From a virus: a stretch of 22,507 nt of DNA. The notes beneath the pieces were generated by a model, which ran no database searches, was not told where the DNA came from, and saw only the letters and a list, made by a program, of their open reading frames with translations. A program made the position numbers and the translations under genes. Location of the stretch: positions 1 to 22,507 of IMG/VR virus record IMGVR_UViG_3300035199_001059, one strand, 5' to 3'. Below, in pieces: positions 1-17,023 of this stretch (its first letter is position 1; each line of letters opens with the position of its first letter).

Positions 1-533
1 TCCTTACTGATTCTGATTATCTTGCAAAAGAGTGTTATAAGCTAAAAAATCACGGTAGAGAAAAGAAAGGTATGTTTATTCATGAATCAGTGGGATTTAA
101 TTTTAGCTTCACTGAGATGCAGGCAGCAATTGGTATAGCCCAGTTACAAAAACTTAATAGGATTATCATTCGAAAGGACAGTATAAGGAGAACATATTAT
201 GAAAGGCTATCTCACCTGGTAGGACTTAAGTTGTTAGGTTCAAGTCCGAATACGGATCACGTATTTTGGTTTACATCAATTTTAACCGACTTTCAAGATG
301 AGCTTAAATCGTTCTTGGATTCCCACAAAATACAAAGTAGACGAGCTTTTTATCCCCTACATATGCAACCCTGTTATCAAACATATGATCTACCTATACG
401 TGATGAATTTAACAAATCTAAACAAATTTATGATCGCTTACTATCGTTACCTTCCTCATACATGCTCACAGCAGAGCAACAAGGTTTTGTGTGCGATACA
501 ATAGTGAATTTTTATAAACACAAAGCTCTATAA
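1..533 (+). CDS. DegT/DnrJ/EryC1/StrS-family sugar aminotransferase, C-terminal part (5' truncated)
   Basis: This is the end of a PLP-dependent nucleotide-sugar aminotransferase; the reading frame is open from base 3 and enters from outside the window, so no start codon is visible. About 176 residues remain. The family signature for the region after the active-site lysine is clear: a HGR tripeptide (bases 48-56), then GFNFSFTEMQAAIGIAQL, then SRRAFYPLHMQP, which matches the C-terminal small domain and the usual end of the family. The PLP lysine and the aspartate that contacts the pyridine nitrogen lie upstream and cannot be checked. Such enzymes put an amino group on a 3- or 4-keto sugar. With GDP-mannose 4,6-dehydratase and a formyltransferase in the same cluster, a GDP-perosamine synthase role is plausible but is inference. 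The N-terminal half may reveal the true substrate. Confidence 0.88.
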   Translation, partial: LTDSDYLAKECYKLKNHGREKKGMFIHESVGFNFSFTEMQAAIGIAQLQKLNRIIIRKDSIRRTYYERLSHLVGLKLLGSSPNTDHVFWFTSILTDFQDELKSFLDSHKIQSRRAFYPLHMQPCYQTYDLPIRDEFNKSKQIYDRLLSLPSSYMLTAEQQGFVCDTIVNFYKHKAL

Positions 534-576
534 AGTGATAAATTTACTTAACTAAAGATATTTGTGAAAATTAAAC

Positions 577-1308
577 ATGATAGATACAAAAAAACGTAGC
601 GTATTAAAAGCTATTACATGGCGCTTATTTGCCATAGTTCTTTTAATGACGGTCACGTATATCGTAACCAAAGATATCAAGTCGGTCACTTATGTGACAC
701 TTGCATATCACTCAATTCAAGTGGGAATGTTTTTTGTGCACGAAAGAATGTGGCAAAAGTTAGAGTGGGGAAAATCCACAGGTGTTTTTATACAGATGAC
801 AGGAATGAGCGGATCAGGAAAGTCGACTTTGGCCTCGTCGGTTGCCTCAAGCTTAATACGTAAGGGTTATTGCGTTGAAGTAATAGACGGCGATGAATAC
901 AGGACAGGACTGTGTAGTGACCTAGGTTTCTCCAAGAAAGATAGAAACACAAATATCCGCCGGTTGGGATTTGTCAGTAAGGTTTTAGCCAGAAATAATG
1001 TAATTTCTATAATAGCTGCAATTAATCCCTACGAAAATATACGTCAAGAAATTTCATTAATATCAGATAGGGTAAGAACAGTCTACATTGAATGTGACTT
1101 AAAGACATTAAAGAAACGCGACACCAAAGGTCTATATAGACGTGCCCAACTTCCTGATGATCATCCTGATAAGGTGTATAATTTTACTGGCGTATCAGAT
1201 CCGTATGAAGTTCCAGCATTTCCAGATTTAGTTATTAATACCGAAGAAGAAGACATAGAGCGGTCGGTAAAGAAACTAGAGGATTTTATTATTAAAACCG
1301 TATCGTGA
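577..1308 (+). CDS. cysC: Membrane-anchored adenylylsulfate kinase (DUF2061-CysC fusion)
   Basis: This 243-residue protein joins two domains. Residues 1-66 are a DUF2061 domain with two hydrophobic segments (about 17-31 and 37-54) and the typical HERMWQKLEWG end. Residues 70-240 are APS kinase, which phosphorylates adenylylsulfate to PAPS, the sulfate donor for sulfotransferases. Visible motifs are the Walker A loop GMSGSGKST (76-84), the APS-binding DGDEYRTGL stretch (104-112), RNTNIRR (123-129), KGLYRRA (184-190) and FTGVSDPYE (203-211). In many APS kinases a serine precedes the PY of the lid loop; here it is Asn150 (INPYE). That serine is not essential in all homologues, so activity is still likely. 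No ATP sulfurylase or sulfotransferase is in the window, so the phage would use host APS. The ribosome-binding site is weak. The fold call is certain; membrane anchoring is inferred from the hydrophobic segments. Confidence 0.9.
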   Translation: MIDTKKRSVLKAITWRLFAIVLLMTVTYIVTKDIKSVTYVTLAYHSIQVGMFFVHERMWQKLEWGKSTGVFIQMTGMSGSGKSTLASSVASSLIRKGYCVEVIDGDEYRTGLCSDLGFSKKDRNTNIRRLGFVSKVLARNNVISIIAAINPYENIRQEISLISDRVRTVYIECDLKTLKKRDTKGLYRRAQLPDDHPDKVYNFTGVSDPYEVPAFPDLVINTEEEDIERSVKKLEDFIIKTVS

Positions 1309-1337
1309 TATAGGGATCAGGATTATTAAACACAAAT

Positions 1338-2495
1338 ATGATAAAGTTAATTAACGATTCTATAACGAAAGAGAATATACAAAGTTTAGCTAAATGGATT
1401 TTAACTGACCCTAAGTTTACGAAGGGTAATCTAACGATCGAGTTTGAAAACAAGTGGTCTTCATGGTTGGGAATTAAAAACTCGGTTTTTGTTAATTCAG
1501 GATCCAGCGCGAATCTTTTAATGGCCGCAGCCCTTCTTGAATCTTCTAGACTAAGAAATAAGAAGATAGTTGTACCCTCTGTTTCTTGGCCAACCACAGT
1601 AGCTCCGTTTATGCAAATGGGATATGAGCCAATAATCTGCGATTGCGATCCGGATAATCTTGGTTTATCTATAGACCATCTAGAAAAAATAATCCATGAT
1701 CATGATCCTGCATCGATTATACTTGTACATGTTCTTGGGTTTGCAAACCATATGAACGCAATAACATCGTTGTGCAAAAAACATGATATAACGCTACTCG
1801 AAGATTGCTGCGAGGCGCACGGAGCAACATACAACGGAAGAAAACTTGGTACATTTGGTGTGATGTCTAGCTTTTCGTATTATTACGGTCATCATATATC
1901 GACAGTGGAAGGCGGAATGATAAGCACCAATAACGAGGAAATGTTAGAAAACTTATTAATGATGCGTTCGCATGGATGGATTAGAGATCTTTCAAAAAAG
2001 AGACAAAGTTACTACCGTAAAAAGTATAACTTAACAGAGTTTAATTCTCAGTTTTTCTTTTTAAAGCCTGGGTTTAATTTAAGATCGACTGATATCAATG
2101 CATTTATTGGTATCCAACAGATGGATTTAATTGATGGATATATTAAGGGTCGTAGACATAGCTTGGAAAGGTACCATAAAAAACTTGACGGAAAAGTATG
2201 GTTACAGTTTAACAATATGTGCGCCCCCTCTCCCTTGGCACTGGGAATTATTGACAAGAATAGGGATTTAATGGCTTCTGAAATGATAAAGTTAGATATA
2301 GAGTGTAGACCCCTAATATGCGGAGCGGTTAATAAACATCCGCTGTGGTATGATAATATGCCGGATATATCTTTACCAAACGCAGAGCTTGTTCATAACC
2401 AGGGCATGTATCTTCCCTGTCATCCAGGACTAACAAATAAAAACATCGATACTATTTGCGATGTTATATTAAAATATGCGTATGATTATAGCTAA
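1338..2495 (+). CDS. DegT/DnrJ-family PLP enzyme, ColD/RfbH-like sugar 3-dehydratase (Lys replaced by His)
   Basis: A full-length 385-residue PLP-fold enzyme of the DegT/DnrJ/EryC1/StrS family. Visible are SGSSAN (54-59) for cofactor phosphate binding, LLEDCCEAHG (153-162) with Asp156 expected to contact the pyridine nitrogen, and the active-site segment SYYYGHHISTVEGG (180-193). Where aminotransferases carry the Schiff-base lysine six residues before the glutamate of EGG, this protein has His185 followed by His186. Loss of that lysine is the hallmark of ColD (GDP-4-keto-6-deoxymannose 3-dehydratase) and RfbH (CDP-sugar 3-dehydrase), which remove the 3-hydroxyl instead of adding an amino group. 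RfbH-type iron-sulfur cysteines are not obvious here, which favours a ColD-like reaction. The GDP-mannose 4,6-dehydratase at 7584 would make the ColD substrate. The substrate assignment is inference; the family and substitution are seen directly. Confidence 0.85.
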   Translation: MIKLINDSITKENIQSLAKWILTDPKFTKGNLTIEFENKWSSWLGIKNSVFVNSGSSANLLMAAALLESSRLRNKKIVVPSVSWPTTVAPFMQMGYEPIICDCDPDNLGLSIDHLEKIIHDHDPASIILVHVLGFANHMNAITSLCKKHDITLLEDCCEAHGATYNGRKLGTFGVMSSFSYYYGHHISTVEGGMISTNNEEMLENLLMMRSHGWIRDLSKKRQSYYRKKYNLTEFNSQFFFLKPGFNLRSTDINAFIGIQQMDLIDGYIKGRRHSLERYHKKLDGKVWLQFNNMCAPSPLALGIIDKNRDLMASEMIKLDIECRPLICGAVNKHPLWYDNMPDISLPNAELVHNQGMYLPCHPGLTNKNIDTICDVILKYAYDYS

Positions 2496-3162
2496 ACTTC
2501 CCAAAGCCTTAATTAGTGAACTGGGAACATCGTTTAAAGATAGAAATTTCTCAGTTAAAGATTTGCAGCAGCTCTGGTATTACCATAAAGAAAGAATCTC
2601 GTCACTGTGGCATGTTCAACAAATTATCGGTACGCACGTAAATGCTTTAGAAATCGGCGTTTGGATGGGAGAGCATGCATTCCTTATTAATGGAATTTTA
2701 CGACCAAAAAAACTAGTTTTACTTGATACATGGGGCCATGATGGTATAGATCCTCCCGGTATCAATGTTCCTTGGGACACAATTTTTAAAAATGTCCAGT
2801 CAACGTTCGCTGCCCTCCATAATGTGGAAATAATTCGTAGTTCATCTTCTGCAGCCCACGCAACGTTTAAAGACGAAATGTTTGATTACATTTATATCGA
2901 TGCAGACTATTCATATGAGGCAACAAAAAAAGATTTAGAGAACTTCTTTCCAAAACTGCGACCAGGGGGAATCATCGCCGGAAACGCCTATTACCAGAAT
3001 TTTTTTGATAACATCGGTGTCTCAAAAGCAGTAGACGAATTTAGAGATAAAAATAAAGATAAGATTAGAGATTTCCGAACTTTTGGTTCTATATGGAATA
3101 GAAGCTGGTTAGTAGAGACTATTCCAGCACCAGATAAGATTTTAGGGAGCAACAATGATTAG
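2476..3162 (+). CDS. Class I SAM-dependent methyltransferase (Methyltransf_24 type)
   Basis: A 228-residue Rossmann-fold methyltransferase. The SAM-binding motif I is ALEIGVWMGE (57-66), an acidic residue at the end of strand 2 is Asp84 (LLDTWG), motif IV is FDYIYIDADYSYE (136-148), and the post-IV loop is LRPGGIIAGN (161-170). This set and the IDADHSYE-like signature fit the small methyltransferases often found in polysaccharide clusters, where they O-methylate sugars. The gene overlaps the end of the preceding dehydratase-like gene by 20 nt and its own end overlaps the next gene by 8 nt, so all three are translationally linked. A second ATG two codons in (2482) is an equally good start. The acceptor cannot be told from sequence; a sugar hydroxyl is inferred from the neighbours. 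Confidence 0.8.
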   Translation: MRMIIAKLPKALISELGTSFKDRNFSVKDLQQLWYYHKERISSLWHVQQIIGTHVNALEIGVWMGEHAFLINGILRPKKLVLLDTWGHDGIDPPGINVPWDTIFKNVQSTFAALHNVEIIRSSSSAAHATFKDEMFDYIYIDADYSYEATKKDLENFFPKLRPGGIIAGNAYYQNFFDNIGVSKAVDEFRDKNKDKIRDFRTFGSIWNRSWLVETIPAPDKILGSNND

Positions 3163-3982
3163 TATCATAGCAGAAATAGGGATTAATCACAACGGTGACA
3201 TTAATTTAGCAAAACAATTGATAGATGTAGCTAAATCTGCAGGCTGCGACTTTGTAAAGTTTCAAAAGAGAAATCCTGATGTGTGTGTACCAGAGGACCA
3301 AAAGTTAAAAATAAGACAGACTCCATGGGGAGAAATGTCTTATATCGACTACAAGCATCGCACTGAGTTTGGGTTTCATGAATACAATGAAATTAATCGA
3401 TATTGTGAGTTAAAGGGAATTGGTTGGTTTGCGAGTGCTTGGGATTTAGACTCTGTAGATTTTTTAAAGCAGTTTCCACAGCAGGATGGAAAAGTTATTA
3501 TGAAGATAGCGTCTGCAAAGATAACCGATATCGATTTATGTGTTAAAGCAAGAGAAGAGTCGGATGTTCTATTGATATCTACGGGAATGAGCACCGAGCA
3601 AGAAGTAGAGCGATGCATAAAAGCGTCTCGCCCAGATGTGGTATTTCATACTAATTCTACCTACCCATGTCCAGTATCTGAGTTGAACTTAAATTATATT
3701 CATCACCTTAACGACAAGTACGATGTAGAAGTAGGGTATAGTGGTCATGAATACGGCCTGGCCACGACCTTCGCAACGGCAGCAATGGGCGTTACGTGGA
3801 TAGAGCGACATATAACGTTGGATAGAAGAATGTGGGGCTCGGATCAAAGTGCTTCCGTGGAGCCAGCGGGTCTGCATAAGCTTGTAAGGGGTATTAGGAA
3901 TATAGATCAAGCAATGGGATCAGCGGGGCCCAGAGAGGTCCTGGGGGGCGAACTTGCTAAGAAGAAGAGTCTAAGGGGTTAA
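3155..3982 (+). CDS. neuB: NeuB-like N-acetylneuraminate (nonulosonate) synthase, short form without SAF domain
   Basis: NeuB enzymes condense phosphoenolpyruvate with ManNAc or a related hexose to give a nine-carbon sialic-acid-type sugar. The TIM barrel is complete: AEIGINHNGD (6-15), FVKFQKRNP (33-41), ISTGMS (141-146), NSTYPCP (167-173), GYSGHEYG (194-201), IERHITLDR (216-224) and WGSDQSAS (227-234). The protein stops at residue 275, just where the barrel ends, with ELAKKKSLRG. Usual NeuB proteins run to about 340-350 residues and add an antifreeze-like SAF domain that helps bind the sugar; it is absent. Short forms with a KKLR-like tail do occur, so this looks like a natural variant rather than a break. 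A strong ribosome-binding site (AGGGAG, 3144-3149) precedes the ATG. No CMP-sialate synthetase is visible nearby. Confidence 0.88.
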   Translation: MISIIAEIGINHNGDINLAKQLIDVAKSAGCDFVKFQKRNPDVCVPEDQKLKIRQTPWGEMSYIDYKHRTEFGFHEYNEINRYCELKGIGWFASAWDLDSVDFLKQFPQQDGKVIMKIASAKITDIDLCVKAREESDVLLISTGMSTEQEVERCIKASRPDVVFHTNSTYPCPVSELNLNYIHHLNDKYDVEVGYSGHEYGLATTFATAAMGVTWIERHITLDRRMWGSDQSASVEPAGLHKLVRGIRNIDQAMGSAGPREVLGGELAKKKSLRG

Positions 3983-3986
3983 TTAA

Positions 3987-4292
3987 GTGATATTCATATT
4001 CGATATTGATGAAACAATATGTTGGTACGAGGATGAAAGAGATTACAATAAGGCATTGCCACATGTTGACAGAATATCTAGGGTGAATAATCTTTATAAC
4101 GATGGAAATACGATTATTTACTGGACAGCCCGTGGATCTGTTACTGGAAAGGATTGGCTCGAACTAACAAGGAGTCAACTAAAACGATGGGGTGCATTAT
4201 ATCACGATCTTCGTATGGAAAAACCACATTACGATTTATTTGTTTGTGATAAAGCAATTAACTCAGAAGATTTTTTTAGGAGTAAATTATAA
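3987..4292 (+). CDS. Small HAD-superfamily phosphatase
   Basis: A compact 101-residue HAD hydrolase. Motif I is FDIDET (5-10) with the nucleophile Asp6 and acid/base Asp8; motif II is WTARG (46-50); motif III is Lys79 (MEKPHYD); motif IV is the acidic pair Asp83/Asp88 in YDLFVCDKA. There is no room for a cap domain, as in the small capsule-locus phosphatases (around 110-130 residues). The start is GTG, supported by AAGGGG (3973-3978) eight bases upstream and by the requirement for the first beta strand IFIFD. It starts four bases after the neuB-like gene and its stop overlaps the next start by one base. A reasonable inference is removal of a phosphate from a sugar phosphate, possibly the NeuB product or precursor. 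Confidence 0.8.
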   Translation: MIFIFDIDETICWYEDERDYNKALPHVDRISRVNNLYNDGNTIIYWTARGSVTGKDWLELTRSQLKRWGALYHDLRMEKPHYDLFVCDKAINSEDFFRSKL

Positions 4293-4846
4293 TGATTTGG
4301 AATGAAATTTTATGCCTAGGAGATTCATTAACATACGGAGCCAGAGATAGGTTTGGAAGATCATATCCTGTTGAGCTTGGTAAGATATTGACGGAAAAAA
4401 CAGGAGAGTTTTATATTTGTCACAATTACGGTATTAATGGAGAAACTAGCGCCGATATTCTAAGGCGATCTTGGAATATATTAAGATCGAATAATGGTTG
4501 TAAGATAGCGTTATTATTAATAGGTACCAACGATACAAAAGCCCCAACACCAGTAGAGATATACGAAGACAATTTACGGCAGTTGATAATGTCTATTAAG
4601 GCGCGTGGTATGAAACTTATAGTGGGAACTCTACCAGAGTTAGAATTTTCCCCTTTCTATTCTCAAAACAGGCAGTTTACAGAGATATATTCTTCAAAAA
4701 TTAGGGAAATGTCAAAGAAATATGGGTTTGAAGTGTGCGAATTATCTGAAATGCAAAAGTATTTAATCGACGGTGTGCATTTCGATAATGAGGGTTATGT
4801 CGAGATTGCAAAGAGATTTGCTGATAAAATATTGGGTTTTAAATGA
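4292..4846 (+). CDS. SGNH/GDSL-family hydrolase (esterase/lipase-like)
   Basis: A 184-residue SGNH hydrolase. Block I is LCLGDSLTYG with nucleophile Ser12; the block II glycine lies in NYGINGETS (Gly50); block III is IGTND with Asn80; block V is DGVHFDNEGY with Asp160 and His163. All four SGNH residues are present and well spaced, and the length fits the single-domain class. No signal peptide is seen, so it should act in the cytoplasm. The start codon overlaps the preceding stop (TAATG), with AGGAG at 4278-4282. In glycan clusters such enzymes add or remove acyl groups on sugars; here it lies between a sialate-type synthase/phosphatase pair and a formyltransferase. The substrate is not known. 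Confidence 0.88.
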   Translation: MIWNEILCLGDSLTYGARDRFGRSYPVELGKILTEKTGEFYICHNYGINGETSADILRRSWNILRSNNGCKIALLLIGTNDTKAPTPVEIYEDNLRQLIMSIKARGMKLIVGTLPELEFSPFYSQNRQFTEIYSSKIREMSKKYGFEVCELSEMQKYLIDGVHFDNEGYVEIAKRFADKILGFK

Positions 4847-5589
4847 GAGCGGGAATAATAGGAAATACTAGGTTAACTTATAAATGTATTTCATTACTAC
4901 AAAATCATCAGTTTGATATAGATTATGTTTTTGGGTTACCGCCCTCTAGTCTAAAAAATAAAGTAAATGCATGGGATATATCTGAATTTTGTTATAGACA
5001 TAACATAGCATACATAAACGATAACGACTGGGATTCCATAGTAAATAGAGACGTAGACATCGTGTTTGAAATGGGCGATTCCCGTATTGTACCTGTTGAA
5101 TTTTTACAAAATAATAAAGTCATTGGAAACCATGGAGCGATTTTACCGTTTGTCCAAGGTGCTGCTTCCCTCGTGTGGGGTAGAATGTTAAATAACGGTG
5201 AATGGGGTGTTTCGCTGTTTATGCTTGATGAAGAAATTGATACCGGTGATATTTTGGTGACAAAAACAGTACGATATAATCCGGAATCTACTTCGATGTA
5301 TGAATTTACTGAGTTGTGCGATGATGCCACCGTAGAGTGTTTAAGCGAGTACTTAGAAGGAAACTATCAAGTTAAAAAGAATGAGTTGTGGCAAGCAAAG
5401 TTAAAAAAGGACATGGATAGTCAGTGTGTTGTAGATATACTACGTCATTGTTATGATAAAAATATTAACATTTATTTACCCCCTCGTCGCCGCCGCCACA
5501 GTGCTTTAAACGATAATTGGAGACAAGATTTTAAAGCATCATTTATGATAGCTAACGACGTTCCGTATTCAAGGTGGTTTAGGGAATAA
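4843..5589 (+). CDS. Formyltransferase (Fmt/ArnA/WbkC-like), probable sugar N-formyltransferase
   Basis: A 248-residue protein with the formyltransferase catalytic domain. The core is GNHGAILPFVQGAASLVWG (95-113) followed by GVSLFMLDEEIDTGDIL (122-138). His97 and Asp133 match the catalytic His and Asp of Fmt and ArnA, including their 36-residue separation. In the canonical N-x-H triad the Asn sits two before His; here that place is Gly95 and an Asn (96) is directly before the His. The length (about 250) and absence of a tRNA-binding C-terminal domain fit sugar N-formyltransferases such as the perosamine enzyme of Brucella better than methionyl-tRNA formyltransferase. It would act on an amino sugar made by an aminotransferase such as the partial one at the left edge. 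The start overlaps the SGNH gene (ATGA), and the next gene begins one base after the stop. Confidence 0.82.
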   Translation: MRAGIIGNTRLTYKCISLLQNHQFDIDYVFGLPPSSLKNKVNAWDISEFCYRHNIAYINDNDWDSIVNRDVDIVFEMGDSRIVPVEFLQNNKVIGNHGAILPFVQGAASLVWGRMLNNGEWGVSLFMLDEEIDTGDILVTKTVRYNPESTSMYEFTELCDDATVECLSEYLEGNYQVKKNELWQAKLKKDMDSQCVVDILRHCYDKNINIYLPPRRRRHSALNDNWRQDFKASFMIANDVPYSRWFRE

Positions 5590-5590
5590 A

Positions 5591-6592
5591 ATGCTGTTAA
5601 TAAGTTTCGGTACAAGACCAGAATACATTAAATTAAAACCCGTAATTGATGTTTGTAGAAACAATAGTTATCCGCTTAGAATATTGTTCACAGGTCAGCA
5701 CCTAGATTTATTACCTTCCTCAGCTTTTGAGATTATCGACATGAGGCTTGATATAACTGCCGGTAAGAACAGACTAGATTCCATTGTACAATCTACCATG
5801 AATAACGACCATATTTTTAACAATATAAAACATGTAATGATACAAGGCGACACCACCTCTGCTTTCTCCATGGCCCTTGCAGCATTTCATAGAAAAATTC
5901 CAGTAATACACTTAGAGGCTGGTTTGAGGACATGGAATCACTATGATCCGTACCCTGAGGAATTTAACAGACAATCGATATCAGCCCTAGCATCAATCCA
6001 TCTATGTCCAACAAAGGACGATGCAAATAATTTAAGACAAGAACGTGTTAGCGGAGACATTCATATTGTTGGAAATACTGTTTTAGATAATTTAAGGGGT
6101 ACAAAGATAGATTATACTAATAACGTTTATATTACGATGCACAGAAGAGAAAATCACGAAATTATGAATCAGTGGTTTGAACAGTTCGAAAATATTGCTA
6201 ACAAGCATAGATCAACAAGCTTTTGTTTTATTTCACATCCAAATCCTAACGTTAAAAAAAATTTAAGCCTGCTAAGTAAAGTAAAAGTTATAGAACCAGT
6301 TCAACACGATAAATTTATTTCCATGTTAGCAAGTTGTAAATTTATGATCACCGACAGCGGTGGAATTCAGGAAGAATCTTGTTTTTTAAGAAAGAAAAGT
6401 ATAGTGTGTAGAAAAACGACCGAAAGAACAGCCAGCCTGGGTCTATTTTCTAGGCTATGTTTATTCCCAATGCACCTTGAGGCCATGGTGGCCGACATCA
6501 TAAACGATTATACTGTAGACGATAGCGAGACATGTCCATACGGTGACGGTTTTGCTACAGTTAAAATTTTCAATATCATAAAACAACTATAG
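5591..6592 (+). CDS. wecB: UDP-N-acetylglucosamine 2-epimerase
   Basis: A 333-residue GT-B-fold epimerase that interconverts UDP-GlcNAc and UDP-ManNAc, or, in hydrolysing relatives, yields free ManNAc. Motifs seen are FGTRPEYIKL (6-15), FTGQH (33-37), QGDTTSAF (85-92) with Asp87, HLEAGLRT (107-114) with Glu109, YPEEFNR (121-127), HRREN (184-188), DSGGIQEES and the TER tripeptide near the end. All expected catalytic residues are present; the protein is about 40 residues shorter than Escherichia coli WecB. AGGGA at 5581-5585 supports the ATG. The product could feed the NeuB-like enzyme (if ManNAc is released) or the UDP-sugar dehydrogenase at 8564 (giving UDP-ManNAcA). Which route applies cannot be decided from sequence alone. 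Confidence 0.9.
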   Translation: MLLISFGTRPEYIKLKPVIDVCRNNSYPLRILFTGQHLDLLPSSAFEIIDMRLDITAGKNRLDSIVQSTMNNDHIFNNIKHVMIQGDTTSAFSMALAAFHRKIPVIHLEAGLRTWNHYDPYPEEFNRQSISALASIHLCPTKDDANNLRQERVSGDIHIVGNTVLDNLRGTKIDYTNNVYITMHRRENHEIMNQWFEQFENIANKHRSTSFCFISHPNPNVKKNLSLLSKVKVIEPVQHDKFISMLASCKFMITDSGGIQEESCFLRKKSIVCRKTTERTASLGLFSRLCLFPMHLEAMVADIINDYTVDDSETCPYGDGFATVKIFNIIKQL

Positions 6593-6610
6593 ATAAAACA
6601 GGAGACTATA

Positions 6611-7531
6611 TTGAGTATTAATACAGAGATCTTGGTAACTGGTGGAACAGGTATGGTCGGAACGGCGCTACAGGATGTTTTACCGTCAGCTCTTTTTTTA
6701 TCCTCTAAAGACTGCGATCTTCGCGATCAAAAACAATGTAGCGAGTTAATAGAAACTTATATAATTCACCTTGCTGGAAGAGTGGGCGGTGTCAAAGCAA
6801 ATAGCAGTTACCTTGCCGATTTTTTTTATGACAATATAACGATGAATACAAACGTCCTTGAATGTGCCAAAAATACCAATGTAAAAAAAGTTATATCGCT
6901 ACTATCAACGTGCGTATTTCCTAATAATACTTCATATCCTTTAGTCGAAAAAAATATTCATGACGGAAGACCTCATGCTTCAAATTTTGCATACGCTTAT
7001 GCAAAAAGAATGTTAGATGTGCAATCTAGGGCGTATAGAGATCAATACGGTTGTAATTTTATAACGGCGATACCAAACAATCTTTATGGACAAAATGATA
7101 ACTTTGACCTAGAGGATAGTCATGTAATTCCGGCAATAATTCGTAAAGTCTGGGAAGCGAAAGTTAAAAATACGGTCGTAAAGTTATGGGGCGACGGTAC
7201 CCCGCTTCGAGAGTTTACATATTCGAAGGATATAGCAAGAATTTTAGCGTTTTTAATGGAAAGATATGACAAACCGCCGCCGATAAACATAGGAAGTACG
7301 ACCGAAGTTTCGATCAGGGAAGTTGCAACAATAATTTGTGAGTGCTTAGAATTTAACGGGGAAGTAGTATGGGATACGTCTTGTCCGTCTGGGCAGTTTC
7401 GAAAACCTTCATCAAACAACGAATTGTTAAATACTGGATGGGATCCAGAGGAATATACGTCGCTACACACAGGACTAAGGGAAACTTGCGAGTGGTTTAA
7501 AAAAACTTATCCGAATATTAGGGGTGCGTAA
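6611..7531 (+). CDS. fcl: GDP-L-fucose synthase or GDP-colitose synthase (Fcl/ColC family)
   Basis: A 306-residue short-chain dehydrogenase/reductase that epimerises and reduces a GDP-4-keto-6-deoxysugar with NADPH. It shows the nucleotide-binding GGTGMVG (11-17), HLAGRVGGVKAN (53-64), a STC triplet (99-101) equivalent to the Ser-Ser-Cys region of E. coli Fcl, the catalytic Tyr128 and Lys132 (YAYAK), and His171 (DSHVIP). All active-site residues of GDP-fucose synthase are therefore present. The start is TTG at 6611; the next ATG would cut the Rossmann strand, and CAGGAG (6599-6604) sits six bases upstream. Family members include ColC, which acts on a 3-deoxy substrate, and that is worth considering given the ColD-like gene at 1338. 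The neighbour gmd supplies the substrate in either case. Confidence 0.88.
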   Translation: MSINTEILVTGGTGMVGTALQDVLPSALFLSSKDCDLRDQKQCSELIETYIIHLAGRVGGVKANSSYLADFFYDNITMNTNVLECAKNTNVKKVISLLSTCVFPNNTSYPLVEKNIHDGRPHASNFAYAYAKRMLDVQSRAYRDQYGCNFITAIPNNLYGQNDNFDLEDSHVIPAIIRKVWEAKVKNTVVKLWGDGTPLREFTYSKDIARILAFLMERYDKPPPINIGSTTEVSIREVATIICECLEFNGEVVWDTSCPSGQFRKPSSNNELLNTGWDPEEYTSLHTGLRETCEWFKKTYPNIRGA

Positions 7532-7583
7532 TTTTTCGTTGTAAAAATATATAAATTTTAAAATTCGATGATAGTATTATGGT
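7532..7583 (+). promoter_or_regulatory. AT-rich gap with late-promoter-like box and 12-bp palindrome
   Basis: This 52-base gap before gmd is almost entirely A and T. It holds TATAAATT at 7550-7557, one base off the T4 late promoter consensus TATAAATA, about 30 bases before the gmd start. It overlaps a perfect 12-base palindrome AATTTTAAAATT (7554-7565). An all-AT 6-bp inverted repeat lies at 7531-7536 and 7543-7548. A late sigma factor (gp55) is encoded in this window, so a late promoter is plausible, but one-mismatch boxes are common by chance in DNA this AT-rich. Confidence 0.3.
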
Positions 7584-8567
7584 ATGCCATATACAAAAAC
7601 CGCTATTATAACAGGAGTAACTGGTCAGGATGGATCATATCTAGCCGAACTCCTTCTTAGTAAGGGATATAGGGTTGTTGGTATTAAACGAAGAACATCT
7701 CTTATCGCCACAGACAGAATAGACCACCTTTTAGATAACGATAATTTTATTTTAGTGTACGGAAATATGATCGATGTCGGATCTATGTATAATACGCTAA
7801 CGAAATTTAAACCAGACGAAATATACAATTTAGCAGCCCAGTCTCATGTAAAGGCTTCATTTTTTGTCCCGGAAGAGACTGTTAACATTACTGCTATGGG
7901 AACGTTAAGACTGCTAGAAGCATGTAGATCGGTTGTTCCGAATTGTAGATTCTATCAAGCTTCATCATCAGAGATGTTCGGTGATAATCCCCAGCCACCA
8001 TTTGATGAAACGTCAACTTTTATGCCGGCATCACCCTACGCATGCGCAAAAGTATTTTCTCATAATATTATTAGGAACTATAGGGTTGGTTATAAAATGT
8101 TTGCCTGCTCCGGAATCTTATTTAACCATGAATCCCCAAGAAGGGGAGAAACATTCGTTACTAGAAAGATTACCAGGGCAGCCGCCAGAATAAAACTAGG
8201 ATTGCAAGATAAGCTTTACCTTGGAAATTTAGATGCAAAGAGAGATTGGGGCTTTACGGGCGATTACGTAGTAGCAATGTGGTCGATGTTACAACAAGAT
8301 AAACCCGACGATTATGTTATTGCAACTGGTAAAAGTTATTCCGTTAAAGAATTTTTAGAGATTGTATTCGAGCATGCTAATCTTAATATCGATGAATACG
8401 TTGCCATTGATTCAAGGTATTTTAGACCCCACGAAGTTCCCTATCTTTTGGGAAATGCGTCTAAAGCAAATAATGAGCTTGGATGGAAACCCAAGACATC
8501 GTTAAGAGAACTTGCAATAATGATGTATGAGCATGATTTAAAGCTGGAAGTGGAGAGTAAAAAATGA
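7584..8567 (+). CDS. gmd: GDP-mannose 4,6-dehydratase
   Basis: A 327-residue SDR enzyme that converts GDP-D-mannose to GDP-4-keto-6-deoxy-D-mannose, the branch point for GDP-fucose, GDP-colitose, GDP-rhamnose and GDP-perosamine. Clear signatures are [15 protein letters not shown] (11-25), NLAAQSHV (82-89), SSSEMFGD (127-134), the active-site YACAK with Tyr152 and Lys156, [17 protein letters not shown] (180-196) and [12 protein letters not shown]. Length is close to the bacterial norm of about 340-370. The ATG at 7584 is used because the Rossmann strand starts soon after; its ribosome-binding site is poor. The stop overlaps the next start by four bases (ATGA). Placement directly after the Fcl-like gene is the classic gmd/fcl pair, in reverse of the usual order. 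Confidence 0.95.
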
Positions 8568-9514
8568 AAAACTTTGCTGTTTTTGGTCAAGGATTTGTGG
8601 GGGGTAGTTTAACGACTGTTTTTTCGGAACGGGGTTTTAATGTGTATTCTTTTGATATCATGGGTAAGGTAGCAAAAGGTGGTACAGATTTATTGTCCAG
8701 TAGCGATTATGAGACAGTAAAAACATCTCCCACAACATTTATTCATAGGTGCGAATCAAAAGCCGATTTTTCTGGTGTGTATTTTGTTTGTTTACCCACA
8801 CCGATGTTTCCATCTGGAGCAGCGGATCTTAGAATAGTGGAATCTGTTTTAGATGTTTTGGCCACAGCAAGCAGCGATACCGAAACGACCCAAAGGATCG
8901 CAGTCGTAAAATCTACGGTACCTCCAGGTAGTGTAGAAAGATGGAATAGGAAATATAACGACAAAAATTTACATATCGTATTTAATCCAGAATTTTTAAC
9001 AGAAGCCAATGCTTTAGAAGATATGAGAAATCAAAATAGGATTATTTTAGGGGGTCCCCGTCCGTGGATAAATACTGTAAAAATGATTTTTCAGACAGCT
9101 TTTCCAAAAGTGCAATTAATAAAAACAAGTTCTACGACTGCAGAAATGGTAAAATATGTTACGAATTGTTTTCTTGCAACGAAAGTATCGTTTGCGAATG
9201 AAATGTATCAAACATGTTTTGAACTTAATAAGCACGGACTAAATGTAGATTATGATAAAGTAATAGAGTATGCAAAACACGATCACCGTTTAGGTGAAAC
9301 CCATTGGGCCGTTCCTGGACCCGACGGAAATTATGGTTTCGGTGGCCATTGTTTTCCAAAAGATTTAAATGCATTAATGTTTTTAGCCAAGAAATATGGC
9401 GTATTATCGACTGTTTTACAGGCCGTGTGGGATAAAAATCTTGAGGTTAGACAAAAGCAGTGCAGAGATTGGGAAAAGCAGGTGGGTAGAGCTGTATCGA
9501 CCGAGGTCGTATAG
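8564..9514 (+). CDS. UDP-glucose/UDP-ManNAc dehydrogenase family, short form lacking the C-terminal domain
   Basis: A 316-residue nucleotide-sugar dehydrogenase, which normally oxidises the C6 hydroxyl of a UDP- or GDP-sugar twice to a uronic acid using NAD. The N-terminal Rossmann motif is GQGFVGG (8-14); then CLPTP (76-80), KSTVPPGS (116-123), [13 protein letters not shown] (141-153), AEMVKYVTN (193-201) with Lys197 and Asn201, and [10 protein letters not shown] (258-267) with catalytic Cys263. The N-terminal and central dimerisation domains are complete, but the protein ends about 50 residues after the catalytic Cys. Family members usually run to 390-440 residues with a C-terminal UDP-binding domain, which is missing here; no remnant of it follows, as the next gene starts three bases after the stop. 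The catalytic Cys and Lys argue for a working but reduced enzyme. Substrate unknown. Confidence 0.85.
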
Positions 9515-9516
9515 TA

Positions 9517-9951
9517 ATGAAAATCATAAGAGGTGTTATATGCGGATCATTCGACGTAATTCACCCTGGGTATACTAGGATGTTTCGTGATGCAAAAGAA
9601 AATGCCTGCAACCATTTAATAGTAGCCCTTCAGGATGATCCCACAATAGATAGACCAGAAAAATGTAAACCTGTGCAATCGTTTAACGATCGTCGAGAAA
9701 TACTACAGTCTATAAGATATATCGATGATATAGTAGAATATAGCACTGAAAAAGAATTGTTTAAACTATTATCAACATTAGATTATGACATAAGGATTCT
9801 AGGAACAGATTATAGGGGTAAACACTACACTGGAATCGAATTAAAAAAGCCAGTTTATTATCATGTAAGAAATCACGACTATTCAACAACATCGCTAAAA
9901 AGAAGTATTTATAATTCCATGAGGGACAAAATAGAGTCAATCGATTCTTAG
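9517..9951 (+). CDS. TagD-like cytidylyltransferase (nucleotidyltransferase, HxGH superfamily)
   Basis: A 144-residue nucleotidyltransferase that would couple CTP (or ATP) to a phosphorylated alcohol or sugar, as glycerol-3-phosphate cytidylyltransferase does. The active-site motif GSFDVIHPGY (10-19) corresponds to the family HxGH, with the second His replaced by Tyr19. The C-terminal nucleotide-binding motif appears as RNHDYSTTSLKR (118-129), in place of the usual RT-x-GISTS. Length is near the 130-residue TagD norm. The preceding gene ends three bases upstream. It closes the sugar cluster; a 61-base gap follows. CDP-glycerol for a teichoic-like decoration, or activation of a heptose- or ethanolamine-type phosphate, are possible roles; none can be selected from the sequence. 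Confidence 0.8.
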   Translation: MKIIRGVICGSFDVIHPGYTRMFRDAKENACNHLIVALQDDPTIDRPEKCKPVQSFNDRREILQSIRYIDDIVEYSTEKELFKLLSTLDYDIRILGTDYRGKHYTGIELKKPVYYHVRNHDYSTTSLKRSIYNSMRDKIESIDS

Positions 9952-10012: not shown

Positions 10013-10798
10013 ATGACAGAATCTTTAGATAAACCATTTCCATCAAATAAACCCCATATATCATTTTCAGAATTTTCAAATTGGCATGAATGTAGTTGGA
10101 GATATAAACTACAATATGTTGAAGGTATAGATACATTTGAGAATAGCGTATATACTGAGTCGGGAAAAGCAGTTCATGCTGCTTGCGAAAGATATATTAA
10201 AACTAGAAAGATGGATGAAGATATCTGTATTGATATGCTCACCACCGCCTGGCAAAAGTATAACTTTAAAGATTTAGAATCGTGGAAAAATACATGTAGA
10301 AGTATGTTGGTTGAAGTACCTGCATGGTTAGACGAAACATTTCAAGGCTGGGAATGCGTTGAGGCAGAAGAAATGTTGTATGAAAACATAGATCACGATA
10401 CACAAAAATTTAAGGGGTTTATAGATGCGATTATTAAAATAAAACGAGGAAATAAAACGATATATTGGTTGCTTGACTGGAAGACAACCAGTTGGGGTTG
10501 GAGAAGGCAGAAAAAAGAAGACTTTCGTATAAGAATGCAACTAATACTTTATAAGAAATACTGGGCGCAAAAACACAATATAGCATTAAAAGATGTTCGA
10601 TGCGGTTTTGTTTTGTTAAAAAGAACAGGCAAACAAAATACTCGATGCGAGCTCATATCAGTTTCTGTTGGATCAAAAACCTTAGAGAAAGCAGACAAGA
10701 ATATAAGAAACATGTTAACATCTGTTAGAAAGGGTGTTTTTATAAAGAATAAAAACAGTTGCAAATATTGCGCCTTTAAAGATAAACACTGCATTTAA
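10013..10798 (+). CDS. PD-(D/E)XK nuclease, RecB/Cas4-like, with probable Fe-S cysteines
   Basis: A 261-residue nuclease of the RecB/Cas4 type. It begins with the family's HISFSEFSNWHECSWRYKL (15-33) and has His55 (GKAVHA), Asp138 (GFIDAI), the D-x-K pair Asp155/Lys157 (LLDWKTT) and the Q-x3-Y motif Gln176/Tyr180 (MQLILY), which together form the metal site. Four cysteines, Cys27 near the start and Cys250, Cys253 and Cys260 at the end, have the C...C-x2-C-x6-C layout that holds an Fe-S cluster in Cas4 and AddB. No helicase domain is fused and no cas genes are near, so it is a phage replication/recombination or DNA-end processing nuclease rather than part of a CRISPR system. A strong AAGGAAG ribosome-binding site precedes it. 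Confidence 0.85.
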   Translation: MTESLDKPFPSNKPHISFSEFSNWHECSWRYKLQYVEGIDTFENSVYTESGKAVHAACERYIKTRKMDEDICIDMLTTAWQKYNFKDLESWKNTCRSMLVEVPAWLDETFQGWECVEAEEMLYENIDHDTQKFKGFIDAIIKIKRGNKTIYWLLDWKTTSWGWRRQKKEDFRIRMQLILYKKYWAQKHNIALKDVRCGFVLLKRTGKQNTRCELISVSVGSKTLEKADKNIRNMLTSVRKGVFIKNKNSCKYCAFKDKHCI

Positions 10799-10844
10799 CG
10801 AATCCCCTCCTATCGGGTTAAAATCTTAAAAACTTGGGTTGTTT

Positions 10845-12089
10845 ATGAAAAAGAAAAAAATATTAATGTTTTGCGACCATCCATTATCAACATCTGGTGT
10901 TGGAATTCAGGCAAGATATCTTATTAACGGTTTGTTGGAAACGGGACAGTATTCATTTCGTATTTTTGGTGCCGCTCTAAAGCATACAAATTATGACGTT
11001 ATAAAGGTTACTGATGATTTTATAGTTAAGCCTATAGACGGTTTTGGAAATCCAGACATGCTTCGTCTGGCATTAGCGACCGAGAAACCGGATGCTCTAT
11101 TTTTATTTACAGATCCAAGATTTTTTATGTATATGTGGGAAATGGAAGATGAAATTCATCAAATATGCCCTATTGTGTATTGGCATGTTTGGGATAATGA
11201 TCCGTATCCAGCTTTTAATTCCGTCATATATCAAGGAACAGATCTTATAAACTGTCATTCATATAAGACCTATTCCATGCTACACAAAAGGTTTCCGGAT
11301 AAAGTAAACTTTGCTCCCCACGCCCTTCCCAATCAGTTATTTTATCCTCTTCCAAAATCTGAAATACGTGAACACAAGGCTAAGATTTTGGGGCGTGATA
11401 GGATAAAAGACTTTGTAGGAATTTGGATTAACAGAAACGCTAGAAGAAAGAAACCTGGGGACGTCTTAGCAGCATGGTCCCTATTTTTAGACGAACTGGA
11501 AAAAAAATATAATCATCGTAATGCTATTTTATTGCTTCACACCGATCCTACTGACAATGAGGGACCAAATTTATTTTCCGTTGTTGATAATTTTAATCTA
11601 AGAAATAACGTGTTTTTTTCCACGAATCGTTTAGAATTTCATGATATAAACGTTCTATATAACATATCTGATTTTTGTATAAACGTTGCTTGTGCAGAAG
11701 GGTTTGGACTATCGACGCTCGAAGCAATGCAGGTAGGAAAACCAATAATAGCTCAAAAAACAGGTGGGTTAACACGCCAAGTAGTTGACCACAGGGATAA
11801 CAGTGAAAATGGTGTTGCATTAGATCCAGACGTAAGAACCTTAGTCGGATCCCAAATGGTACCGTATATTTACGAAGATCATGTTTCCAATAAAAATGTT
11901 GCTAATGCATTTATGAAAATGTATGAATTCGGTCCTGAGGTACGAAATCAAATCGGTGAAAAGGCGCGTAGGTATGTGATAAGTGAATTTAACCTAGAGT
12001 CTACTGTGGATATCTGGCATAAGACCTTAATGGATACTATAACGAACTGGAGACAACGATATGATTTTAAGAGGGTTATAGAGATATGA
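10845..12089 (+). CDS. GT4-family (GT-B) glycosyltransferase 1
   Basis: A GT-B-fold glycosyltransferase of 414 residues from the ATG at 10845; a TTG two codons earlier (10839) is a possible but less likely start, and neither has a clear ribosome-binding site. The N-terminal domain carries a STSGVGIQARYLI loop typical of GT4 donors/acceptors; the C-terminal domain has GIWINRNARRKKP and the E-x7-E signature EGFGLSTLE with GKPIIA after it. No membrane segment or signal peptide is seen. It transfers a sugar from an activated donor, but donor and acceptor are unknown. It overlaps the second glycosyltransferase by four bases (ATGA). Its place beside the nuclease and late sigma factor, outside the sugar cluster, suggests a virion protein, host glycan or DNA target; all three are guesses. 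Confidence 0.85.
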   Translation: MKKKKILMFCDHPLSTSGVGIQARYLINGLLETGQYSFRIFGAALKHTNYDVIKVTDDFIVKPIDGFGNPDMLRLALATEKPDALFLFTDPRFFMYMWEMEDEIHQICPIVYWHVWDNDPYPAFNSVIYQGTDLINCHSYKTYSMLHKRFPDKVNFAPHALPNQLFYPLPKSEIREHKAKILGRDRIKDFVGIWINRNARRKKPGDVLAAWSLFLDELEKKYNHRNAILLLHTDPTDNEGPNLFSVVDNFNLRNNVFFSTNRLEFHDINVLYNISDFCINVACAEGFGLSTLEAMQVGKPIIAQKTGGLTRQVVDHRDNSENGVALDPDVRTLVGSQMVPYIYEDHVSNKNVANAFMKMYEFGPEVRNQIGEKARRYVISEFNLESTVDIWHKTLMDTITNWRQRYDFKRVIEI

Positions 12090-13246
12090 AACGAGTTATT
12101 TTAAGGGCACCAGTGCTAACACAGTCTGGTTACGGCGTACATTCACGACAATTCGCTAGAACTCTTCTAAATAGAACGGATATCGAATTATATATCCATG
12201 CAGTTCCATGGGGAATAACTCCATGGATTATAAACCCAGAAAAACATGACGGTCTTATCGGTAAAATTTTAAATCGCTGTGTTCCAGCCAAAGAGAAATG
12301 TGACGTTAGTATACAGCTCCAACTCCCGGATGAATGGGATCCAAACCTTGCACATAAAAACATCGGTATTACTGCGCTTGTCGAAACTGATAAATGTAAT
12401 CCTAAATGGATCGAGTGTATTAATAAGATGGATGGTGTCGTTGTTCCGTGTGATCATAATGTAAAAACTATTGCGAATACTGGACGCACCTCTACTCCCA
12501 TTACTGTGCTAAGAGAAGCTTATTTTGACGAGCTGTTAAATACAAGTTTTGATGATACATTTCTATCAAGTGTTACCACCAATTTTAATTTTTTAATGTT
12601 TGGTCAAATTACGGGAACAAACAATCAAGATGATAGAAAAAATACTTTCAACACAATTAAGTGGTTTTGTGAATGTTTTAAAAACGACCCGGAAGTCGGC
12701 CTAATTTTAAAAACAAATAGTGGAAAAAATACACATACAGATCTACAGTTAACACGTAATAAGTTAAAACAGGTGGTCGGTGAAGTTAGAAGTGGTAAAT
12801 ATCCCCGCATTTATTTATTACACGGTGATTTTTCACCAGGCGATATAAACGCATTGTATAGGTCAGAAAAGGTTAGATGCTTACTAAATTTAACACGGGG
12901 AGAGAGTTTTGGTCTTCCAATACTCGAAGCATCTGTCGTGGGTCTTCCATCTATAGTTACAGATTATAGTGCCCCTCCAGAATATCTACATCCTGATAGG
13001 TTTTTAGAAGTTCAATGTGATGTTAAACCTATACACGAATCAAGAGTAGATAATCGAATATTTATGCCCGGATCTAGTTGGGCTGAGGTTCGAGAAAACC
13101 ACGCAAAGAAACGGATGATAAAATTCAGACAGCAACCAGCGCTTCCAGAGAAATGGGCTAAGGGTTTATCAGATCGGCTATCCTTAACTCATAGCTTTTC
13201 ATCGGTGGAAAAAGATATAAACGTTTTGTTGGAGTCTTATTTTTGA
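12086..13246 (+). CDS. GT4-family (GT-B) glycosyltransferase 2
   Basis: A 386-residue GT-B glycosyltransferase with the same layout as its upstream neighbour. The N-terminal loop is LTQSGYGVHSRQFARTL, the C-terminal E-x7-E motif is ESFGLPILE, followed by VGLPSIVTD, which binds the donor nucleotide in GT4 enzymes. No membrane helix is visible. Start (ATGA) and end (TGATG) both overlap neighbouring genes, so it is cotranslated with the first glycosyltransferase and the small membrane protein. Shared architecture but limited motif identity between the two proteins suggests an old duplication or two separately acquired enzymes acting in sequence, one adding the first sugar and the other extending. 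Donor, acceptor and linkage cannot be read from the sequence. Confidence 0.82.
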   Translation: MKRVILRAPVLTQSGYGVHSRQFARTLLNRTDIELYIHAVPWGITPWIINPEKHDGLIGKILNRCVPAKEKCDVSIQLQLPDEWDPNLAHKNIGITALVETDKCNPKWIECINKMDGVVVPCDHNVKTIANTGRTSTPITVLREAYFDELLNTSFDDTFLSSVTTNFNFLMFGQITGTNNQDDRKNTFNTIKWFCECFKNDPEVGLILKTNSGKNTHTDLQLTRNKLKQVVGEVRSGKYPRIYLLHGDFSPGDINALYRSEKVRCLLNLTRGESFGLPILEASVVGLPSIVTDYSAPPEYLHPDRFLEVQCDVKPIHESRVDNRIFMPGSSWAEVRENHAKKRMIKFRQQPALPEKWAKGLSDRLSLTHSFSSVEKDINVLLESYF

Positions 13247-13539: not shown

Positions 13540-14241
13540 ATGCCTCGAAAACCTAGTAAAAAAAATTTATATTTTAATGATGATACACAACAGGCGATAA
13601 TAAAGTTCCAGACAGAAGAGGAACGATCGGAGCGAGAAAGATTATACGTAAAAGAAATACTGCCTGCGTTTGATAAACTAGTTGAGAATTTAATTTTTAT
13701 ACATAAGTTTCAAGGGCAGGATAGAAATTTCGAAACCTTAAAGAGCGATTGTGTTACATTTTTATACGAAAAAATCCATAAATACAATGGGTCAATGGGT
13801 ACCAAAGCTTTTTCATATTTTAATGTTGTAGCAAAAAATTGGTTAATTAATAATTCTAAAATTGTCGCAAAAAAGTTAAGAAGGGATGTAAGTATAGATA
13901 GTCCAAACCTTACTGCGGGACAACGAGCAAATATAGAGCTGTACCAGGTTATCCCCGCCCAGGATAAAGTACTAATAGACCAGGTAAATAAACGTGCCTT
14001 AAGAGCGTTATTTGAAAAAATCCGCGAAGAATGTACAAATAAGAACGAAGAGTTGTGTATAACATCCATTATTTATATTTACGATAATATAGATCAAATT
14101 GACCTACTTAATAAAAGGGCTGTTTACTTGTACATACGAGAAATAAGTGGTCTAAACCCCAAACAATTGACAATCGCAATGTCGTCAATTAAGAAAAAAT
14201 ACAGAGTTTTTCGACACCTAGATTTACTGGAGAAAAAATGA
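13540..14241 (+). CDS. 55: T4 gp55-like sigma factor for late transcription
   Basis: A 233-residue protein of the gp55 family, which binds host RNA polymerase and the -10-like TATAAATA box to direct late gene transcription. The family core is visible as LPAFDKLVENLIF (41-53), FLYEKIHKYNGS (74-85) and KAFSYFNVVAKNWLINNS (89-106), a divergent sigma region 2. It is longer than T4 gp55 (185 residues) because of an extended C-terminal half, roughly residues 140-230. It starts four bases after the small membrane protein stop and overlaps the next gene (ATGA). Its presence places the baseplate genes that follow under late control and marks the genome as T4-like. Coactivator (gp33) and clamp (gp45) partners are not recognised in the window. 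Confidence 0.85.
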   Translation: MPRKPSKKNLYFNDDTQQAIIKFQTEEERSERERLYVKEILPAFDKLVENLIFIHKFQGQDRNFETLKSDCVTFLYEKIHKYNGSMGTKAFSYFNVVAKNWLINNSKIVAKKLRRDVSIDSPNLTAGQRANIELYQVIPAQDKVLIDQVNKRALRALFEKIREECTNKNEELCITSIIYIYDNIDQIDLLNKRAVYLYIREISGLNPKQLTIAMSSIKKKYRVFRHLDLLEKK

Positions 14242-16550: not shown

Positions 16551-17021
16551 ATGGAATTTACTTTTAAACATACAGGAAAAGCATCTACCGAAATAGCGGA
16601 TGAAAAAACCAACCTTCCCCAACCGCTGATGGGTATTAAAACCCCCCTACGTCCAGGTCGAGGCGCAAGCGGATTATTTGATATGCACCTCTCTAGGAAT
16701 AATCTAATAAGGGATAATTTAAAGAACTTATTGATGACAAACCATGGCGAAAGAATAGGACAATACGATTTCGGCGCAAATCTTCAAGAACTACTTTTTG
16801 AAATGCAGAGCGGAGATTTTGATTCTAGGGTTGTTGAAAGGGTTAGCACCGCCGTCGGAAAGTATATGCCATATATTTCGTTACAAGAGCTACAGGTAAC
16901 AGATAGTTCTATGGAGAATCTTCCCGAGGGTGCAACGATAAAACTTAAGATTATTTACAATGTGAATGATCTCGGAATAAAAAATGACAGTATTGAAATT
17001 CTTATGAGAACCGAGGCGTAA
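16551..17021 (+). CDS. 25: T4 gp25-like baseplate wedge protein
   Basis: A 156-residue GPW/gp25-family protein; gp25 is the small wedge/sheath-initiator component that links the baseplate to the first sheath ring. Residues 41-90 carry the family features: an aligned helix LSRNNLIRDNLKNLLMTNHGE, then RIGQYDFGANLQELLFE. The C-terminal beta-strand region (110-155) includes LQELQVTD and LKIIYNVND. It is a little longer than T4 gp25 (132 residues), with a 40-residue N-terminal extension rich in Pro and Gly. It precedes gp6 by two bases, as in other contractile tail systems where the two are partners. Confidence 0.85.
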   Translation: MEFTFKHTGKASTEIADEKTNLPQPLMGIKTPLRPGRGASGLFDMHLSRNNLIRDNLKNLLMTNHGERIGQYDFGANLQELLFEMQSGDFDSRVVERVSTAVGKYMPYISLQELQVTDSSMENLPEGATIKLKIIYNVNDLGIKNDSIEILMRTEA

Positions 17022-17023
17022 TA

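Follow-up and report, generated by a model that had tools for sequence, protein, structure and literature searches.

The viral record IMGVR_UViG_3300035199_001059 is 22,507 bp long and was analysed over its full length (hereafter, the window), so what is described here is a genome fragment. Positions 3–9951 are occupied by 13 consecutive open reading frames (ORFs; g01–g13) on the + strand, as are all genes cited below from the window, with gaps of no more than 52 nt and five overlaps; the run of thirteen consecutive genes described in an earlier note on this DNA is indeed present. Pfam, NCBIfam and PHROGs profiles, together with PDB profile searches for selected genes, agree with that note in placing the products in activated-sugar and glycan-tailoring families, the weakest call among the 13 being g06 (HAD-like). 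The first gene, g01, is 5'-truncated at the contig end, and the cluster is therefore incomplete on that side. Beyond it lie a nuclease gene, a pair of glycosyltransferase (GT) genes and T4-like baseplate genes. Dozens of related aquatic phages have such a sugar set, many at one genome site, and the cluster appears to be the part closest to the nuclease of an island for glycan synthesis that varies in content and occupies a fixed site in far-T4-like aquatic phages.

The branch-point enzyme of the cluster is a GDP-mannose 4,6-dehydratase (Gmd) encoded by g11 (7584–8567; PF16363, 2e-128), which is 65–69% identical to its counterparts in seven loci of its own phage group and 50% identical to Gmd of E. 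coli. A second enzyme acting on this branch is specified by g03 (1338–2495), a DegT-fold protein (DegT Pfam match, 6.8e-69) whose best PDB matches are ColD/WbdK (2gms and 3gr9). Where K-type homologues have the lysine that binds pyridoxal phosphate, g03 has a histidine (FSYYYGHHIST) that aligns with both that lysine and ColD. All close phage homologues aligned carry histidine at this position, and the distant ones lysine. In a tree that includes the E. coli O111 ColD (WbdK) reference, all the His-type proteins, g03 among them, form one clade (99/97), and the Lys/His switch is a single change; identity between g03 and O111 ColD is only 33%. On these grounds g03 is identified as a predicted ColD-type GDP-4-keto-6-deoxymannose 3-dehydratase. 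An ordinary aminotransferase is ruled out by the residue and the tree, so that of the two DegT-family enzymes listed in the earlier note the family stands for both, but one is a dehydratase and the other, g01, is only a fragment.

The likely partner of ColD in a colitose-type pathway is a GDP-fucose-synthase/ColC-type epimerase-reductase, and g10 (6611–7531) belongs to this family (PDB match to GDP-L-fucose synthase, 8e-85), with an Fcl-like position in the tree; it may serve fucose, colitose or both. Among 16 phage ColD loci, which include near-duplicates (L189/L190 and L195–L197), an Fcl/ColC-like gene lies directly upstream of ColD in 10, with a 4-nt overlap where read, and Gmd is nearby in 11. 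The same order, including the overlap, is seen for wbdJ/wbdK of E. coli O111, and in L187 a GT11 gene precedes ColC. Gmd, ColD and an Fcl/ColC-type gene are all present in the window, and the sugars made probably include one of colitose type; ManC is not encoded there, and the ManC-type family PF00483 occurs in only 2 of 23 phage records.

A further product may be GDP-N-formylperosamine, because g01 resembles perosamine synthetase and g08 sugar formyltransferases. What remains of g01 (3–533) are the last 176 aa of a protein of the DegT family (PF01041, 2e-31; profile positions 186–359 of 360), the N-terminus with the catalytic Lys/His site being off the contig; it resembles sugar aminotransferases, with PDB matches to a transaminase (2oga) and to perosamine synthetase (3bn1/3dr4). 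The product of g08 (4843–5589) is like the N domain of sugar N-formyltransferases (PF00551, 1.4e-8), has a visible N-H-D motif, and matches the sugar formyltransferases 4xcz and 4lxq and GDP-4-amino-4,6-dideoxymannose formyltransferase (5vyr). Its close cellular relatives are scarce: of 298 genomes, two gave matches at E ≤ 1e-10, with 27–30% identity. The preceding gene, g07 (4292–4846), codes for an SGNH/GDSL hydrolase (PF13472, 9.3e-22). On a different-looking phage contig (L059:9453–10747), homologues of both (SGNH 69%, formyltransferase 42%) occur in g07–g08 order, which suggests that the pair moves as a cassette.

The nonulosonate branch is represented by g05 (3155–3982; PF03102, 2.5e-64), a NeuB-family synthase of 275 aa in which the metal-ligand histidines H198 and H219 are invariant among phage homologues. 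It scores 218.7 bits against the NeuB_NnaB equivalog model for N-acetylneuraminate synthase, below the NCBIfam cut-off of 399.65. The C-terminal SAF domain is absent from g05 and, judged by ORF length, from 80 of the 81 cellular ORFs scored; the nearest cellular homologues of the short form are mostly from Bacteroidota and Chlorobi. By sequence, g05 is thus placed in a short NeuB subfamily, and loss of the SAF domain as a phage innovation is ruled out, since its nearest cellular relatives are equally short. NeuA (PF02348) adjoins or lies near NeuB in five of six related NeuB-bearing records (G026–G031), and in L083 CTP_transf_3, GFO_IDH_MocA and SDR genes are found next to NeuB and HAD. A DAHP_synth_1 (KDO-8-P-synthase-like) gene at L091:11485–12291 follows a NeuA-type gene that adjoins NeuB. 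The small HAD-like protein g06 (3987–4292) matches phrog_1238 (1.2e-23) and has HAD motifs, its Pfam match (HAD_PNKP, E = 0.004) being below cut-off; genes of this type often occur within a few genes of NeuB (L083, L084–L087, L091 and L105). The non-hydrolysing-type UDP-GlcNAc 2-epimerase g09 (5591–6592) scores 219.1 bits with the wecB model TIGR00236 (cut-off 210.15) and only 65 bits with the NeuC model.

The closest cellular NeuB (56%) and its adjacent HAD (46%) are in a Flavobacteriales metagenome-assembled genome, SP71 (L105), within a polysaccharide-export locus that specifies a Wzz-like kinase, an ABC-2 permease, a Wzt_C ATPase, a GT2, a sulfotransferase and a methyltransferase. Apart from the NeuB–HAD pair, the flank retrieved from this locus contains no gene of the window, and among 396 genomes of the same phylum, a sample without a positive control, no g03 homologue was found at E ≤ 1e-70. 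The earlier note had raised the possibility of a match to one host locus; no full match was found, only this pair. There is likewise no support for a recent acquisition of the entire set from a single host locus, as NeuB reaches at most 56% identity to cellular copies and only NeuB and HAD were found together. The export context of the closest cellular copy does favour one alternative role for the island, in which phage sugars and GTs alter or extend the lipopolysaccharide (LPS) or capsule of the host via host lipid carriers and exporters, thereby blocking superinfection, hiding receptors or deterring grazing. Such remodelling of the host surface has been proposed for the LPS genes of cyanophage P-SSM2 (PMC2984593).

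Sulfate activation is indicated by g02 (577–1308), in which a DUF2061 membrane domain (PF09834, 3.3e-10) is fused to an adenosine 5'-phosphosulfate (APS) kinase (PF01583, 5.5e-44), the enzyme of 3'-phosphoadenosine 5'-phosphosulfate (PAPS) synthesis. It exceeds the TIGR00455 cut-off (171.8 against 138.7 bits) and has the P-loop GMSGSGKST. Full-length matches occur in 13 other phage loci (52–60% identity over 238–243 aa), and the kinase part alone is found in 10 more. In most of these 13 loci the APS-kinase gene lies close upstream of the homologue of g18, a gene of the phage backbone described below. Sulfotransferases were looked for in 20 records, 13 chosen for the APS kinase and 7 for other genes, the latter all without a full-length match to the kinase. 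PF00685 (E ≤ 0.001) was detected in 7 of the 13 and in none of the 7 (Fisher p = 0.044, uncorrected), with three of the seven matches below the family cut-off, and its distance from the kinase is up to about 8 kb, except in G013 (about 15 kb). As the two record sets also differ in lineage, the association is suggestive only. The sulfation step named in the earlier note is therefore borne out for the activating enzyme but not for a sulfotransferase, which the window lacks, though one is often near the kinase in relatives.

Three further genes complete the cluster. A methyltransferase dependent on S-adenosylmethionine (Methyltransf_24; PF13578, 1.5e-13) is encoded by g04 (2476–3162). The NDP-sugar dehydrogenase g12 (8564–9514) is above the TIGR03026 cut-off but consists of PF03721 and PF00984 only, without the C-terminal domain, and has its catalytic cysteine within FGGHCFPKD. 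The last gene, g13 (9517–9951), specifies a TagD/RfaE-like nucleotidyltransferase (CTP_transf_like; PF01467, 7e-10); near residues 16–19 the expected HxGH reads HPGY, the second catalytic histidine being replaced by tyrosine. HPGY is shared by five close phage homologues out of six, and the sixth, distant one has HRGH.

The cluster has fixed neighbours that were overlooked previously. The PD-(D/E)XK nuclease g14 (10013–10798; PF12705, 1.3e-20), constant in position among relatives, marks the conserved edge of the island, and is followed by two conserved GT4 genes (10839–13246). The first, g15 (10839–12089; PF00534), has a GT-B fold, and its AlphaFold model (pLDDT 88.6) gave Foldseek matches to GT4 enzymes, including 3oy2 of chlorovirus NY2A. 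The second, g16 (12086–13246; PF00534, 2.4e-7), is syntenic in relatives. Further downstream, g18 (13540–14241) looks sigma-like: its sole PDB profile match is T4 gp55 (E = 1.2, weak), and fold searches gave mostly bacterial sigma factors, all weakly. The baseplate wedge genes g22 (gp25-like; phrog_43, 3e-11) and g23 (gp6-like; phrog_219, 4.7e-15), at 16551–18871, support the earlier assignment to a T4-like phage. For gp6 the closest sequenced records (30–32% identity) are Flavobacterium phage immuto, Microcystis phage Mel-JY01 and an uncultured 484-kb phage, and matches to g15 additionally include Rhodothermus phage RM378. These relationships point to the far-T4 group, a placement by gp25/gp6 matches and distant far-T4 isolates, gp23 being off the fragment. 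From the T4-like backbone the lineage is assumed to be strictly lytic. Sigma-70 promoters in the window were not above chance (64 against 61.9 in shuffled sequences), and the T4 late motif TATAAATA was not found on the + strand.

A scan of viral contigs with gp6 gave 57 loci and, where flanks reach, a recurring gene order: nuclease-GT4a-GT4b-g17-g18-g19-g20-gp25-gp6-g24-LamG. The junction between cluster and backbone was seen again in about 12 independent relatives, which excludes an assembly break, and with gp25 and gp6 being phage genes host contamination is also ruled out; neither of the outcomes that the earlier note had named as refuting it, an assembly break or broken genes, was found, no gene in the window being broken. 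Upstream of the nuclease, the 12 relatives examined have co-directional genes, mostly of 200–350 aa, in runs of which the longest exceeds 15 kb. Six islands gave 119 proteins, among which NAD epimerases (19), GDP_Man_Dehyd (16) and GT2 (10) are some of the commonest Pfam families, along with methyltransferases (8), UDP-sugar dehydrogenases (7), GT4-type enzymes (7) and CTP_transf_3 (4). Across 13 loci, recurrence is highest for genes close to the nuclease (g12 in 9, g11 in 7, g10 in 6 and g13 in 5), with g03 and g05 found in one and two, respectively, so what the window shows is the conserved side of an island that is larger and has exchangeable content. A phage group bearing the APS kinase and one bearing ColD carry similar islands, mostly upstream of the g18 homologue, and in the immuto isolate genes of the aminotransferase, methyltransferase and epimerase types come after PD-(D/E)XK-GT-GT.

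One idea of the earlier note is not supported, that the set is seldom this full: relatives have islands of similar or larger size at the same site. The product may or may not be the one complex glycan which that note suggested, the gene mix varying from relative to relative. Such strong variation in gene content would also be expected if the sugar genes were mostly host-derived cargo, retained as filler for headful packaging and of little function, an idea raised for cyanophage LPS genes (PMC3037559). We regard it as most improbable here, given that the ORFs of the window are unbroken and closely spaced, that cassettes recur (ColC-ColD, NeuB-NeuA-HAD-WecB and SGNH-formyltransferase), and that key residues are kept among distant homologues.

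Membrane-bound machinery is scarce in these islands. Transmembrane (TM)-like segments were detected in 2 of 211 island ORFs of the fragment's own group, whereas cellular NeuB loci have them in 175 of 884 ORFs (p = 2e-15), counted by a simple hydropathy rule rather than a trained predictor and against a general control, as the cellular loci include non-polysaccharide genes too. The two exceptions are L083:11118–11984 and L091:6189–6971. Of the parts expected in a complete O-antigen or capsule operon, the window has neither an initiating glycosyl-phosphate transferase nor a flippase or exporter nor a polymerase, and the initiating glycosyl-phosphate transferase (PF02397) and flippase (PF01943) families were detected in 0 of 21 related records, many of them fragments in which absence is not proof; polymerase and ABC exporter families were not searched. 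This near absence of membrane proteins argues against remodelling of the host surface, which we consider unlikely though far from negligible, and the foremost of the alternatives. Soluble, conserved GTs adjoining a nuclease could instead serve to place sugars on hypermodified phage DNA bases as a shield against restriction, and phage enzymes that glycosylate DNA are known from work cited in PMC12619734. The thymidylate-synthase/dCMP-hydroxymethylase family (PF00303) occurs in only 2 of 21 phage records, other base-modification routes not having been searched, and we think DNA glycosylation highly unlikely. Sulfation, formylation and nonulosonate steps also go beyond any DNA decoration known to us.

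The gene pattern is in keeping with soluble branch-point enzymes that receive GDP-mannose and UDP-GlcNAc from the host, and at the level of the enzymes there is good support for a glycan programme in the cytosol. We infer its products, acceptor and biological role as follows. Drawing on host precursors, Gmd (g11) would convert host GDP-mannose to GDP-4-keto-6-deoxymannose, from which GDP-L-fucose could be made via g10, a GDP-colitose-type 3,6-dideoxysugar via g03 with g10 or an off-contig ColC, and GDP-perosamine and its N-formyl form via g01 and g08. NeuB with an off-contig NeuA would supply a CMP-activated nonulosonate-type sugar, and the DUF2061-APS kinase PAPS for sulfation. The GT4 pair g15/g16, with further GTs of the types seen in relatives, would then build up the glycan within the cytosol, the most likely carrier being a virion protein. 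In chlorovirus PBCV-1, GMD, GMER and GTs without TM domains make the virion glycans (PMC4691112), and a virion protein is preferred as acceptor here because the machinery is soluble, the GT pair is conserved across the lineage and resembles a chlorovirus GT in predicted fold (g15), and chloroviruses use comparable enzymes. That the programme is cytosolic, fed by host sugars and most likely decorates virion proteins is a reading in which we place middling confidence. Its extension to far-T4-like phages as a whole, as an autonomous cytosolic virion glycosylation equivalent to that of chloroviruses, in which a conserved GT pair and a swappable rare-sugar island (colitose-type, N-formylperosamine, nonulosonate, sulfate) vary the virion coat from phage to phage, is more tentative.

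Several observations weigh against the preferred reading. Absent membrane machinery is also what one would expect if the host export system were used, the cellular NeuB–HAD pair does sit in a polysaccharide-export locus, and g02 itself has a membrane domain. NeuA, ManC and a sulfotransferase are not in the window; the host may supply them, or their genes may lie beyond the contig. In the tree g10 clusters with phage Fcl genes, most of which are without a neighbouring ColD, the formyltransferase match of g08 is weak, and g01, its partner for the amino sugar, is cut short. Both the glycan and the acceptor are predictions from gene content.

If rare, host-like sugars are indeed displayed on the virions of aquatic phages, then adsorption, recognition and grazing would be affected, and there would be an explanation for why T4-like phages keep 15–20 kb of sugar genes, a question of function versus 'stuffer DNA' left open in PMC3037559. 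Specific, testable predictions of enzymes and acceptor follow from the fixed site, from the conserved pair of GTs and from the two cassettes ColC-ColD and NeuB-NeuA, and one sequenced isolate, Flavobacterium phage immuto, is organised in a related way.

Sugar/LPS clusters are already known in T4-like phages (PMC2984593, PMC3037559). Not met in the literature consulted are a phage 3,6-dideoxysugar cassette defined by ColD, an island edge fixed as nuclease-GT-GT and a gene set almost free of membrane proteins, and no report of phage colitose was found in the open-access literature searched. The T4-like cyanophages P-SSM2, S-SSM7 and S-SM2, marine myoviruses, resemble the present phage in having large sugar/LPS-type clusters. 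Compared with the papers' text rather than the genomes, the island described here differs in abutting nuclease-GT-GT and the baseplate module and in containing ColD. The P-SSM2 LPS cluster is reported near phoH, and a PhoH gene also occurs inside the ColD-bearing island of L187 (12932–14074), between its Gmd end and the g18 homologue. No marine Synechococcus or Prochlorococcus phage is among the gp6 and g15 matches listed, indicating a different lineage. With the far-T4 phages immuto and RM378 (PMC4360716, PMC7198788) the gp6/gp25 backbone is common and island content differs; the sugar terms searched for were not found in the main text of PMC4360716, and PMC7198788 mentions carbohydrate and sulfur auxiliary metabolic genes.

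Among cellular systems, the colitose O-antigen locus of E. coli O111 (L208) shares Gmd, ColC and ColD, with the same overlapping ColC-ColD as phages L187–L200, but has manC, phosphomannomutase, wzx and wzy, which the phages mostly lack. The Flavobacteriales locus of SP71 is similar in its adjacent NeuB–HAD, sulfotransferase, methyltransferase and GT2 genes, and differs in its ABC export and Wzz-like genes. Chlorovirus PBCV-1 is comparable in its virus-encoded Gmd, Fcl and TM-less GTs, and the predicted fold of g15 is close to that of the NY2A enzyme 3oy2. Unlike PBCV-1, the phage has a bacterial host and additional ColD, NeuB, APS-kinase and formyl branches.

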